Source: a virus. From it: a stretch of DNA of 64,000 nucleotides. Of the stretch, positions 6,772 through 12,837 are shown piece after piece. Within the stretch, counting starts at the first letter, position 1, and every line of letters begins with the position of its first letter. A model generated the notes under the pieces. That model saw only the letters and a program-made list of their open reading frames with translations, had not been told where the DNA came from and did not search any database. The stretch is from IMG/VR virus record IMGVR_UViG_3300025809_000014, positions 33,656-97,655 of that record; one strand, 5' to 3'. Made by a program: the position numbers and the translations under genes.

Positions 6772-7009
6772 GCTCGTAGTATTTATTTAAGATTAATCTT
6801 TCTATCTCTCCTATTGTATCATAATGTAGAATGCCAATGATATCTTGGCCTCCACATGATATAATATGTGATTCAAACTCTGCAGGTGCTCCTGGATAAC
6901 CAGCCATATCTGCGTCATACATCACTTGCTTCTCCTCTGGTGCATAAAAACCAGTGACATTGAGTACAACATTGTCATACTCAATCTCATGTGTGGTTCC
7001 ATTAGCCAT
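6761..7009 (-). CDS. Hypothetical protein, 82 residues
   Basis: This acidic soluble protein contains VMYDADMAGYPGAPAEFE, a pattern I associate with small conserved phage proteins of unknown function. It is preceded by a 1-base gap from the 48-residue membrane protein gene and overlaps the next gene. No catalytic motif is seen. Confidence 0.6.
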   Translation of the reverse strand: MANGTTHEIEYDNVVLNVTGFYAPEEKQVMYDADMAGYPGAPAEFESHIISCGGQDIIGILHYDTIGEIERLILNKYYEHDY

Positions 7010-7010
7010 A

Positions 7011-7157
7011 TCAATAGCCTATTTGTTCTAGCGCTTCATCTTCTGCTTCTACTGTATACATAGTATTAGCAATGTTGCACATAAATAGCACTCCAAACAT
7101 GAATGCTGCTTTTCTAAATCTGTAAAACTCCGTGGGTGTTAATTTAATTTTTCTCAT
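7011..7157 (-). CDS. Membrane microprotein, 48 residues
   Basis: A basic N-terminus (MRKIKLTPTEFYRFRK) is followed by a hydrophobic helix (AAFMFGVLFMCNIANTMYTV) and an acidic tail. The topology would be N-in, single pass. It is the first gene downstream of the structured non-coding region (7193-7464) on this strand, so its expression may depend on that element. No family is recognised. Confidence 0.55.
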   Translation of the reverse strand: MRKIKLTPTEFYRFRKAAFMFGVLFMCNIANTMYTVEAEDEALEQIGY

Positions 7158-7192
7158 TTTGTATTTATTAATGGTTCAACTTATTTATTAAT

Positions 7193-7464
7193 TAATAACA
7201 ATCATTCAGGTTTTAACGCATAACCTTATTCCCCTGATATACTTTGCTCACTCAACCTCATACTTCGTGAGGTATCTACCCTTGTTCTACAAGTGAGTTT
7301 ATCATTGTTATTATAATATACTTAGAGTGCTTATCCATTGTTGGCTGACACTATTTCAGAATAGTCAGTGGTATTGCTTGACTCATTTCTCTAAGTATAA
7401 GAACTATCATCTGCTCTCCTGCAGCGTTGAGGTTATCTAGAAACCAAGATTGTTAGTCTAGTTC
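7193..7464. ncRNA. Candidate structured non-coding RNA: three tandem stem-closed domains
   Basis: Three adjoining segments are each closed by a perfect inverted repeat. Domain A: 7193-7202 pairs with 7304-7313 (10 bp) and encloses a stem 7206-7210/7233-7237, a stem 7247-7252/7292-7297, and hairpins 7255-7260/7268-7273 and 7281-7285/7289-7293. Domain B: 7317-7327 pairs with 7389-7399 (11 bp) around a hairpin 7345-7355/7360-7368. Domain C: 7401-7406 pairs with 7459-7464 (6 bp) around 7411-7414/7421-7424 and 7431-7434/7442-7445. No reading frame fills 7160-7457. The transcribed strand is probably minus, as for the flanking genes. It is not a canonical tRNA. The function is unknown; a phage RNA or a leader regulating downstream genes are options. 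Confidence 0.5.
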
Positions 7465-7592
7465 TTTTTCTCTTTCTCTTTCTTTGCTTCTTCATAACAC
7501 TGTTGACAAGTATGAACCTCGTCACAAGTGCATGTTAGCTCAGGAGATATCTTATAGAGCTCCCAAGCAAACTGTGCATCTTCAAAGAACAT
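7458..7592 (-). CDS. Cysteine-rich microprotein, 44 residues
   Basis: The frame begins MFFEDAQFAWELYKISPELT and continues with CTC, then CQQC, a probable zinc knuckle, then a Lys/Glu-rich tail. The start overlaps the stop of the upstream 95-residue gene as TAATG. The tail explains the pyrimidine-rich tract seen on the plus strand at 7461-7490. No family is recognised. Confidence 0.55.
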   Translation of the reverse strand: MFFEDAQFAWELYKISPELTCTCDEVHTCQQCYEEAKKEKEKKN

Positions 7593-7879
7593 TAGCACCA
7601 GTCTTTATAAGTGCAAAGAGTTCTCATTGATATATTTGGATACATTAGTTTGATTTCATCTAATGTTCTATCATCAACGTTAACTAATTCAATTTCATAA
7701 CTATCATTAGTACTAATATCATTAAAGGTTATAGAACCTAACTTATTAGTCAAGAAGTTCATAATTCCCTGATGAATAAGATCAGCTATATGAAAAGCTT
7801 TGAAGTGATCTCCTTCTGCTCTATCCATGTATGTATGTGGATATACTTTAATTGTATTTATCATAATGTTGTAGTACAA
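7592..7879 (-). CDS. Hypothetical protein, 95 residues
   Basis: This soluble mixed alpha/beta protein has possible starts at 7879 (MYYNIM) or at an internal Met six codons in (MINTIKVYPH). I see no motif beyond a C-terminal Cys pair. It is the first gene to the left of the proposed origin region. The function is unknown. Confidence 0.55.
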   Translation of the reverse strand: MYYNIMINTIKVYPHTYMDRAEGDHFKAFHIADLIHQGIMNFLTNKLGSITFNDISTNDSYEIELVNVDDRTLDEIKLMYPNISMRTLCTYKDWC

Positions 7880-7951
7880 TGCTCTTCAGCTTTAGAGCTC
7901 CCTAACTTAATATAAGCATAGAGAGAAAGTTATTAGGTGTTAGTATAAGTG

Positions 7952-8110
7952 TAGCATGTTAATGCTATATTTATTTATTATACTATGAGGATTATAAGAG
8001 GTGGTAAAAAGTGGATAAAAGTGGATACTGTGTACACGTCCGTTCTGTTACATACACAAAACACACGTAAGTTTACGTTTTTTAAGGCCCACCCTTGCTT
8101 ATTCCCACCC
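7952..8110. other. Candidate origin of replication (non-coding 7880-8160)
   Basis: This gap has no reading frame and stacks origin-like signals. They are an inverted repeat TAGCAT/ATGCTA (7952-7957/7962-7967), then an AT-only stretch to about 7985, then three 10-bp direct repeats at 8001-8030. A GTGTACAC palindrome (8030-8037) and an ACGTAA-gt-TTACGT inverted repeat (8065-8078) follow. On the minus strand a GGGTGGG-N9-GGGTGGG motif (8088-8110) could form a G-quadruplex. The middle repeat reads TTATCCACT on the other strand, one base from the DnaA box TTATCCACA. It sits close to the divergence of the two transcription arms. Origin function is inferred. Confidence 0.45.
8001..8030 (+). repeat. 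Three 10-bp direct repeats (iteron/DnaA-box-like)
   Basis: Consecutive decamers GTGGTAAAAA, GTGGATAAAA and GTGGATACTG repeat with an exact 10-bp period, one helical turn, so bound proteins would line up on one face. The middle copy with the preceding A is AGTGGATAA, the complement of a DnaA box with one mismatch. Such arrays are typical initiator-binding sites. Confidence 0.55.
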
Positions 8111-8116
8111 TATATA

Positions 8117-8144
8117 TAAAAGAGAGAGCTGTTACACTCTCTCC
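8117..8144 (-). terminator. Rho-independent terminator after the 8161-8571 gene
   Basis: On the minus strand, GAGAGAG pairs with CTCTCTC (8137-8143 with 8122-8128; 8-base loop) and is followed by TTTTATATATA. It lies 17 bases past the stop of the 8161-8571 gene, giving that gene its own transcript. Confidence 0.65.
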
Positions 8145-8160
8145 TTTTAAGGATTGTTGC

Positions 8161-10486: not shown

Positions 10487-10819
10487 ATGGCAAAGAAAAC
10501 TACATACATAAACGCTGAGCTTGATTGGGCAGAACAACAACTACTTTCTTGGAAAGAGTATGTTGATGCTAATCCATTACATAAGCTTGAAGATAGGGTG
10601 AAATACAAAGAAACATCAAATGGAGGACAAATTCCAATGGTTGTTGCAAGTATTGAGTCCCAAGGTAAATTTGTTCAAGATACAATGAAAAACTACCTAT
10701 CTCTATTAGAACAAGTTGATAAACTACGTGAGAAAGAAGAAAAGAAGAAAATAGAAACAAGAGGTGGTCAAGAATTAGGATCTATGGCTGAAGAGTTTAT
10801 CAAGAGTAGAAAAGAATGA
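10487..10819 (+). CDS. Putative small terminase subunit
   Basis: The gene directly precedes the large terminase and overlaps its ATG by 4 bases (ATGA). The protein is about 110 residues, mostly helical, with a C-terminal coiled-coil segment (LLEQVDKLREKEEKKKIETR) that could drive ring oligomerisation. An N-terminal DNA-binding HTH is not obvious. I chose the ATG at 10487 (MAKKTTYINAELDW), which follows an A-rich leader; ATGs at 10463 and 10472 are alternatives. Assignment rests on position, size and coiled coil, so TerS is only likely. Confidence 0.5.
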   Translation: MAKKTTYINAELDWAEQQLLSWKEYVDANPLHKLEDRVKYKETSNGGQIPMVVASIESQGKFVQDTMKNYLSLLEQVDKLREKEEKKKIETRGGQELGSMAEEFIKSRKE

Positions 10820-12837
10820 AACTAAAAAGCATAGACTATAAGGATTGGATGATTAATCAGAAAAGAATTCCTGATAAAGATTCTGAAGAATACAAACCTT
10901 TCTATGACTTTCATAAAGAGTTATGTATGAACGGATGTATGATGGATGGTACATATATAAACCCATTCCTATACTGGCACTTAAATGCTTGGCATACAGA
11001 AGTTGATATTATAGATGAATATGGTAGAATCAATCAGAAGTATGCTAACCCACTACTTAGAGATAATGAATGGTTAGTAACTAATGAAATAGATAGAGCC
11101 CATAAAGAAAAGAAAGGATTAGTAATACTAGGAATTAGACGTTTTGCTAAATCTGTAATAGAAGCAAGTTATATTGCTCAAGGTGCAACCTTTGATGAAA
11201 ACTCTCAGAATATTATTGCAGGACTAAACGCACCTGATATTAAACTTATTACTGATAAGATTGATAAAGGTTTAAACTTTTTACCTAAAGCTTGGAGGTG
11301 GCAGAGAGTAGAAGATAACTGGAAAAATCAAGTTACCTTAGGAATTAAAACTAGAGGTGGTGAAAGAATTCCATTTTCACAAATACTTGTTCGTAACTTA
11401 GATGATGGTAACAATGAAGAGGCTATTGCAGGTACAAAACCTAGAAGACTAATCATTGATGAAATAGGTAAAGGATCTTTTCTTCGTGGACTACAAGCTG
11501 CAATACCTGGATTTACAACACCATTTGGATGGGGATGTAGTCCTATACTTACAGGAACAGGTGGAGATATGAAAAAGTTCATGGATGCAAAATCTTTAAT
11601 GTTTGATGTAGATAACTTTAACTTTCTTACATACAATAATGCAAAAGATAATAAACGTATACACGGATTATTCATCTCACATAAATATAGAATGGAAGCT
11701 AAAGAGGATTCAACTCTTGGAGCTTTTTTAGATAAGCCTAAATCATCTGAACTGCACAATGTAGAGATGATGGTATCTAATGAAGAACTAGCTAATAAAG
11801 TTACTAATGAAAACTTAGAAAGATTAAAAAAGGCTGGAGATAGACTAGCTTATCTAAAAGAAAAGATGTACTATCCACAAGAGGTAGATGATATATTCTT
11901 AAATGAAGACACAAACATCTTTGATATAGAAGCAGCTAAACGTCAGAAGCATAGATTAATAGAAGGTGAAAGAACAGGAACTCCTGTTATATTATATGAT
12001 GATGGTGAAGGTGTAAAGCATGATTTTACAGATAAGCGCCCTATTCTTAACTTTCCATTGAAGCATACAGATTTAAAAGATGCTCCTGTAATTATTTATG
12101 AATTTCCTGTAGATGATCCACCTTATGGCCTATATGTTGCAGGTATTGACCCTTATAGACAGGGTAAATCAGCATATAGTTCATCATTAGGATCAGTATA
12201 CATATATAAACGTATGCATGCTATATCTGGTGAGAAATACCAAGATATGTTTGTAGCTAGTTATTGTGCACGTCCAGATAAGAAAGAAACCTGGGAAAAT
12301 CAAGCACGATACTTAATAAAATATTACAATGCAAGAGCATTGTGTGAAAATGATGAAATATCATTTATAGATCACATGATAAGTAAAGGAGATGCTCAAT
12401 ATTTGGAAAGACAACCTACATGGTTAAAAGAAATAGTACCAAACACTACCGTAAGACGTGATTATGGTATACATAGATCATCTGAAAAGATTAGAGACTT
12501 CTTACATGGTTGTCTCAAGAAGTACACAGAAGAAATTGTACACTCTGAGACTAACGAAGATGGTGAGGTTGTTTCTCAAATTAAAGGTATGGCTAAAGTG
12601 TTAGATCCTGTACTACTAGAAGAAATGATACAGTATAATGAATCAGGTAACTTTGACCGAATCATTGCAGCTGAGTTAGCAATTGCGCTAGCTATGAAAC
12701 TAGATCCCATTCTTGGAAAAGCAGGGGAACAACAGGATGTAAGATTAACATCTATGGTCAACCGAAACAAAAAAAATAAACTATTTACACAATCCAGAGG
12801 GTTGTTTAATAGAAAGAAAAATAAACTTTTTTCATAA
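10816..12837 (+). CDS. terL: Large terminase subunit (TerL)
   Basis: This is the DNA-packaging motor ATPase and headful nuclease. ATPase domain: a divergent Walker A, GIRRFAKS (106-113), Walker B RLIIDEIG (D215, E216) and coupling motif TGTGG (246-250). Nuclease domain of RNase H fold: GIDPY (D445), CENDE (E511) and FDRIIAAE (D614) supply the three acidic metal ligands. At 673 residues it is a typical crAss-like length. It overlaps the upstream gene by ATGA and the portal gene by one base (TAATG). Confidence 0.93.
   Translation: MKLKSIDYKDWMINQKRIPDKDSEEYKPFYDFHKELCMNGCMMDGTYINPFLYWHLNAWHTEVDIIDEYGRINQKYANPLLRDNEWLVTNEIDRAHKEKKGLVILGIRRFAKSVIEASYIAQGATFDENSQNIIAGLNAPDIKLITDKIDKGLNFLPKAWRWQRVEDNWKNQVTLGIKTRGGERIPFSQILVRNLDDGNNEEAIAGTKPRRLIIDEIGKGSFLRGLQAAIPGFTTPFGWGCSPILTGTGGDMKKFMDAKSLMFDVDNFNFLTYNNAKDNKRIHGLFISHKYRMEAKEDSTLGAFLDKPKSSELHNVEMMVSNEELANKVTNENLERLKKAGDRLAYLKEKMYYPQEVDDIFLNEDTNIFDIEAAKRQKHRLIEGERTGTPVILYDDGEGVKHDFTDKRPILNFPLKHTDLKDAPVIIYEFPVDDPPYGLYVAGIDPYRQGKSAYSSSLGSVYIYKRMHAISGEKYQDMFVASYCARPDKKETWENQARYLIKYYNARALCENDEISFIDHMISKGDAQYLERQPTWLKEIVPNTTVRRDYGIHRSSEKIRDFLHGCLKKYTEEIVHSETNEDGEVVSQIKGMAKVLDPVLLEEMIQYNESGNFDRIIAAELAIALAMKLDPILGKAGEQQDVRLTSMVNRNKKNKLFTQSRGLFNRKKNKLFS

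Follow-up and report, generated by a model that had tools for sequence, protein, structure and literature searches.

A gap of nearly 300 bases in the early operon of a crAss-like phage contains three independent and mutually unrelated structured elements, here called A, D and C, which are gained, lost and swapped singly by related phages. The sequence analysed, referred to below as the window, comprises 64,000 nucleotides (positions 33656-97655) of a 97.7 kb virus record (G000). Its terminase (10816-12837) is 39% identical to that of its closest cultured relative, Leptolyngbya phage Lbo-JY46 (PP438436.1), 32% to those of the Cellulophaga phages phi17:2 and phi4:1, and 27% to that of cr10_1, a member of the Crassvirales, and on these identities the phage is crAss-like in the broad sense. 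In PP438436.1, a phage of the cyanobacterium Leptolyngbya, a tRNA array lies immediately upstream of the terminase gene.

Left of approximately 8.57 kb the main genes are on the minus strand and form the early operon. The gap holding the elements (7158-7457) lies between two mechanically called minus-strand ORFs: an upstream ORF of 46 aa (7458-7598), whose last codons and stop codon are overlapped by the 5' arm of element A, and a downstream ORF of 48 aa (7011-7157, orf48), which served as the syntenic reference gene in many relatives. The initial annotation placed this gap in a genome with almost no spare DNA; its length of nearly 300 bases is correct, while the second statement holds only in part, as the early operon has another long gap at roughly 7880-8160, before a 95-aa ORF.

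On the minus strand, three adjacent segments are each closed by a perfect stem: C (7193-7313) by 10 bp (TAATAACAAT/ATTGTTATTA), D (7317-7399) by 11 bp (TATACTTAGAG/CTCTAAGTATA), and A (7399-7466) by 8 bp (AAGAACTA/TAGTTCTT). This agrees with the three domains first recognized, including the lengths of the first two stems and the gap of 3 bases between C and D, except that the third stem had been given as 6 bp and the second gap as 1 base, where we find 8 bp and 0 bases. In this AT-rich sequence, stems of 10 bp or longer are common by chance: the window has 12, against 9.8 +/- 3.1 in dinucleotide shuffles. A pair of such stems at most 10 bases apart occurs 0.017 times per shuffled window, and one such pair was observed. 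The folding energy of the whole gap on the minus strand has a z-score of -1.4, and the separate domains have z-scores of -3.2 (C), -2.7 (D) and -0.6 (A). By itself the MFE z-score is too weak as evidence, and the comparative data are decisive: the closing stems of related copies carry the compensatory changes that mark a structured RNA motif, in support of a structured RNA on the operon strand of the early region. We are highly confident that the gap contains three stem-closed structured elements, which form its largest part.

Eighty related loci were obtained by a DNA polymerase search, and a blastn search of the gap against them matched the domains separately, at differing spacings. In arm-swap tests between copies, which ignore shared ancestry, none of 2000 shuffles paired as well as the copies' own arms for A or for D, and 9 of 2000 did so for C.

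Element D (83 nt) is closed by P1 (7399-7389/7327-7317), which is followed by a stretch (7388-7369) containing the invariant strand AUGAGUCAAGCAAUACCA, by P2 (CUGAC-UAU, 7368-7361, with AUA-gu-GUCAG, 7354-7345), by P3 (7344-7335), and by the strand AUAAGCA (7334-7328). Across 16 distinct copies, 256 of the 256 pair cells of P1 and P2 are paired, with compensatory exchange at five positions (positions 1-3 of P1, 3 and 5 of P2), and the joining strands hardly vary. P3 keeps a CC/GG base, beyond which the copies differ in length, from a very small loop up to inserts of about 76 nt. The helix formed by the operon strand is more stable than that of the opposite strand in all 13 copies compared, owing to G-U pairs, which points to an RNA made from the operon strand; the same comparison does not discriminate between the strands for A or C. 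Element D recurs in about 30 other viral contigs; an exact-core scan of IMG/VR found it in 19 contigs and looser scans added more, and a model search of whole records gave one strong match in each of 20 out of 47 records and otherwise essentially none. The window copy matches those of the carriers at 46-48 of 49 bases, with the terminases of many carriers being about 30% identical to that of the window; exact-core retrieval partly inflates core identity, and the looser scans and model searches gave few intermediates.

Element A (68 nt) reads as a three-way junction in which P1 (AAGAACUA, 7466-7459, with UAGUUCUU, 7406-7399) encloses the conserved strand AACAAUC (7454-7448), P2 (GGUU, 7445-7442, with AACC, 7434-7431), the strand CAACG with its conserved AACG (7428-7425), and P3 (CUGC, 7424-7421, with GCAG, 7414-7411), whose ARGAGA loop is AGGAGA in the window (7420-7415). 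P1 differs among phages yet pairs in each of them, be it as AAGAACUA/UAGUUCUU, AAGGGCU/GGCCCUU, AAAGUAACC/GGUUACUUU or GGGCAUAGAA/UUCUAUGCUU, and P2 likewise varies in sequence with its pairing kept. MAFFT alignments of A were discarded because they misplaced P1, so that pairing was judged by segments and by the arm-swap tests. The element recurs in about 25 other viral contigs; an exact-core scan of IMG/VR returned 26, one of which (L099) is probably a chance match, located in GC-rich sequence unlike that around the other copies. In model searches of whole records, 16 of 49 contained A; among these matches are weak tandem and permuted forms in which the exact core is retained.

In the permuted form, found in a very distant phage (L109), the strands of A are rearranged such that P2 is the open stem and P1 is capped; from this single copy we take it to be a circularly permuted A. 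It lies in the middle of a string of three abutting stem-closed domains on the plus strand (652-729, 731-791 and 792-881, with stems of 11, 11 and 14 bp and gaps of 1 and 0 bases), a layout like that of the window, and the outer two domains are further uncatalogued elements. Two tandem copies of A inside one closing stem (AAAACGAAA/UUUCGUUUU) are present at L096:10848-10979 (minus strand) and L101:4867-4998 (plus strand); their strands would also permit two interlocked copies with a common P2.

Element C (121 nt) has P1 at 7313-7304/7202-7193, an inner stem CUCAC/GUGAG, and the conserved strands GGGUAGAUACC and AAUAAGGUUAUGCGUUAAAACCUGAAUG; its consensus fold contains two compensated pairs. 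It recurs in about 12 other viral contigs (11 from the exact-core scan of IMG/VR, extended by a looser scan), and model searches of whole records gave strong matches in 10 of 49 and otherwise essentially none.

Among the records searched, A, D and C occur together in this phage only. Ahead of the syntenic orf48, five states are found among the relatives (A-D-C, A-D, C, A or no element), and in other relatives A or A-D is located downstream of orf48. One relative (L097) is near-identical to the window through A, D and the orf48 leader, with exactly domain C missing, and D is present in L034 and absent at the same site in L035 and L114; many records being fragments, absence in a single record is weak evidence. 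The empty sites of C and D have near-identical flanks and short A+T direct repeats at the joints, and two further loci look, from their sequence, like scars of a lost C (L010) and of a lost A (L018). Each element precedes many unrelated ORFs. Most copies end 15-50 nt ahead of a start codon; the elements usually lie between ORFs, with about 30-60 nt from the last of them to an ATG. The pool also includes small protein genes that travel, since a small ORF beginning MENH shares 97-98% identity between L012/L008 and L123/L125, with the terminase of the L123 phage being about 30% identical to that of the window.

The initial annotation could name no family resembling the region, and database searches bear this out. 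With Rfam 15 covariance models, nothing in the window reached the gathering score, and region 6900-8100 gave five matches at E up to 10, none of them over the three domains; the same models found only one distant tRNA on 18 carrier loci. At A, C and D neither ARAGORN nor Rfam detected a tRNA or tmRNA. In GenBank phages nothing convincing was found for D and nothing beyond chance for the elements, plasmids gave no convincing D, and a model search found no copies in Cellulophaga phi17:2_18 or cr10_1. Weak model matches in Lbo-JY46 were rejected as chance, those to A and D falling inside annotated CDS. The open-access literature contains no description of the elements.

Three other identities were considered and set aside. 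A coding role is not favoured, as almost every base of the cores is close to invariant and the length changes of P3 in D are not multiples of three. Mimicry of a host RNA found no counterpart, the A-core and D-core patterns being unmatched in bacterial and archaeal genome contigs except for one D. This copy, the only D in the genome collection, lies on a 114.7 kb contig (L190, WLWP01000004.1) of a MAG named Pseudomonadales; the contig holds a phage terminase and is probably a phage contig binned with a bacterium. A Y RNA with a Ro60 partner was suggested by the TROVE early protein of crAss001 (PMC10136315); the TROVE domain (PF05731) is absent from 46 records in a search whose control worked, a result that applies to phage-encoded and not to host-encoded Ro.

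The reading we favour, at somewhat less than an even chance, is that A, D and C are horizontally exchanged accessory RNAs acting in trans. The elements would be made as part of the early minus-strand transcript and possibly be processed out of the mRNA. Each is a compact junction of several helices with a near-invariant core, and its own terminal stem closes it off, so that its folding need not depend on its neighbours. The elements behave like accessory cassettes, swapped among diverged crAss-like phages and inserted singly between early genes; their invariant cores may serve as binding surfaces for a host component, each RNA acting early in infection as a decoy, inhibitor or guide. With gene contexts so varied and five states ahead of orf48, a regulator of one particular gene is less likely and action in trans more so. 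Against action in trans weigh the position of most copies 15-50 nt ahead of a start codon, as expected of a cis leader, the lack of the A or D core in host RNAs and bacterial genomes apart from the one binned D, and, for A and C, helix energies that do not distinguish the strands. The elements resemble phage tRNA arrays with accessory small RNAs, in which small RNA genes also stand in series and are acquired or dropped singly, but A, C and D are not tRNAs, and no member of the array described here matches a known RNA.

A second possibility, which we take seriously without preferring it, is that the elements are cis-acting leaders of early ORFs, that is, ligand or protein aptamers or structures that stabilize or insulate the mRNA, the tandem modules being composite leaders. 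The usual spacing of 30-60 nt to a start codon leaves room for a cis role, and the aptamer-like invariant cores in three-way junctions, together with the position of the tandem A copies of L096 and L101 in the leader of an ORF, are consistent with it. Riboswitches, tandem aptamers and leader RNAs indeed share with the elements a junction, an invariant core, a variable closing stem, a frequent location before a start codon and, at times, a tandem arrangement. They differ from A, C and D, which lack a constant downstream gene or pathway, a recognized expression platform (nothing terminator-like is seen in the leader of orf48 in the window) and an Rfam match; the downstream genes are unrelated, and the same gene, orf48, stands behind different sets of elements or none, with A behind it elsewhere.

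It is improbable, though worth weighing, that the elements are catalytic RNAs, self-cleaving or of another kind, with a role in processing the early transcript. They are small junctions with invariant unpaired strands, and the permuted A of L109 keeps a ribozyme under consideration, as hammerhead ribozymes are known in circularly permuted forms. Against this, the permuted form was found only once, a cleavage site cannot be pointed to, and no known self-cleaving ribozyme class in Rfam matches over the domains at E up to 10. The HDV-like theta ribozymes of gut phages (PMC10879173) and hammerhead variants (PMC3088659) are also small conserved RNA motifs in phages, from which the elements differ in having no tRNA neighbour in the window and no recognized nested double pseudoknot.

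Elements acting at the DNA level, such as miniature mobile elements bounded by inverted repeats, sites of recombination or origin structures, would account for the precise presence or absence between near-identical flanks, the A+T repeats at the joints and the spread over diverged phages. We nevertheless consider them very unlikely: a mobile element would conserve its terminal inverted repeats in all copies, whereas here the terminal repeats vary and covary around an invariant interior, opposite to what transposon ends show; moreover, there is one copy per genome, and the G-U pairs of D favour the operon strand in every copy compared.

The proposal of the initial annotation, a single tandem three-domain ornate RNA, is scarcely tenable despite the serial arrangement of three closed domains only 3 and 0 bases apart, because neither order nor membership is conserved, the domains recur alone or in other combinations, and C is cleanly missing in L097. 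The likeness to large ornate phage RNAs that had been seen in the layout does not extend to size: GOLLD, ROOL and OLE, likewise non-coding structured RNAs from bacteria and phages whose function is known in part or not at all, are each one large RNA that assembles into multimers (PMC12286853), whereas A, D and C are units of 68, 83 and 121 nt, mutually unrelated and exchanged separately.

Finding new structured RNA motifs is familiar; what is unusual here is for several motifs, unrelated to each other, to behave like interchangeable cassettes. Returning to action in trans, we suggest more tentatively that crAss-like phages of environmental samples share a pool of exchangeable RNA modules, comprising A, C, D and probably the elements B, E, F described below and others, that act as trans-acting, RNA-only accessory effectors in early infection; such a pool would be the RNA counterpart of exchangeable anti-defence proteins. 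The three uncatalogued RNA families, with their strong comparative support, come from a phage group known mainly through its proteins, and they suggest that RNAs, besides proteins, are exchanged among the early accessory regions of crAss-like phages. Each element is short and self-contained, and related phages having or lacking it occur in nature, so that cis and trans functions are directly testable.

Further candidate elements were noted in relatives. Element B, closed by CUCUCAUCC...UGAGAGUU with a conserved CAAGGAUUGCAACCUUG, is found on the plus strand at L008:5829, L012:5778, L016:5823 and L072:2637, often after C and ahead of a small ORF. Element E (UUUGCCU...UGGACAUCAGGCU...GAUAACCAAC; L035:47 and L114:8402 on the plus strand, L111:1384 and L169:1338 on the minus strand) is closed by UUGACAC/GUGUCAA or, in other phages, by UUGAUAC/GUAUCAA, and is nested within B, as if plugged in, at L016:5861 and L072:2690 (both plus strand). 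Element F (UCCUCUAUAGGAUAAUAG.CAUAGUACCCGCAAUAUUG) lies next to D or C in 11 distinct places, among them L117:2464 and L084:6239 on the plus strand and L119:587, L123:909 and L124:7184 on the minus strand.

The second long gap of the early operon contains, at about 7980-8060 on the minus strand and ahead of a likely promoter, repeats of the type TATCCACTTT / TTTTACCACC, similar to sequences present in L016, L084 and L189; this may be an origin or promoter region. The short motif GCUGNAGAGCAUNGUACU, which resembles P3 of element A, is located at 7890 (minus strand) in the window and in 15 other distinct places in relatives, where it lies about 10-15 nt ahead of the start codons of numerous small early ORFs that are unrelated to each other and is perhaps a shared translation leader.
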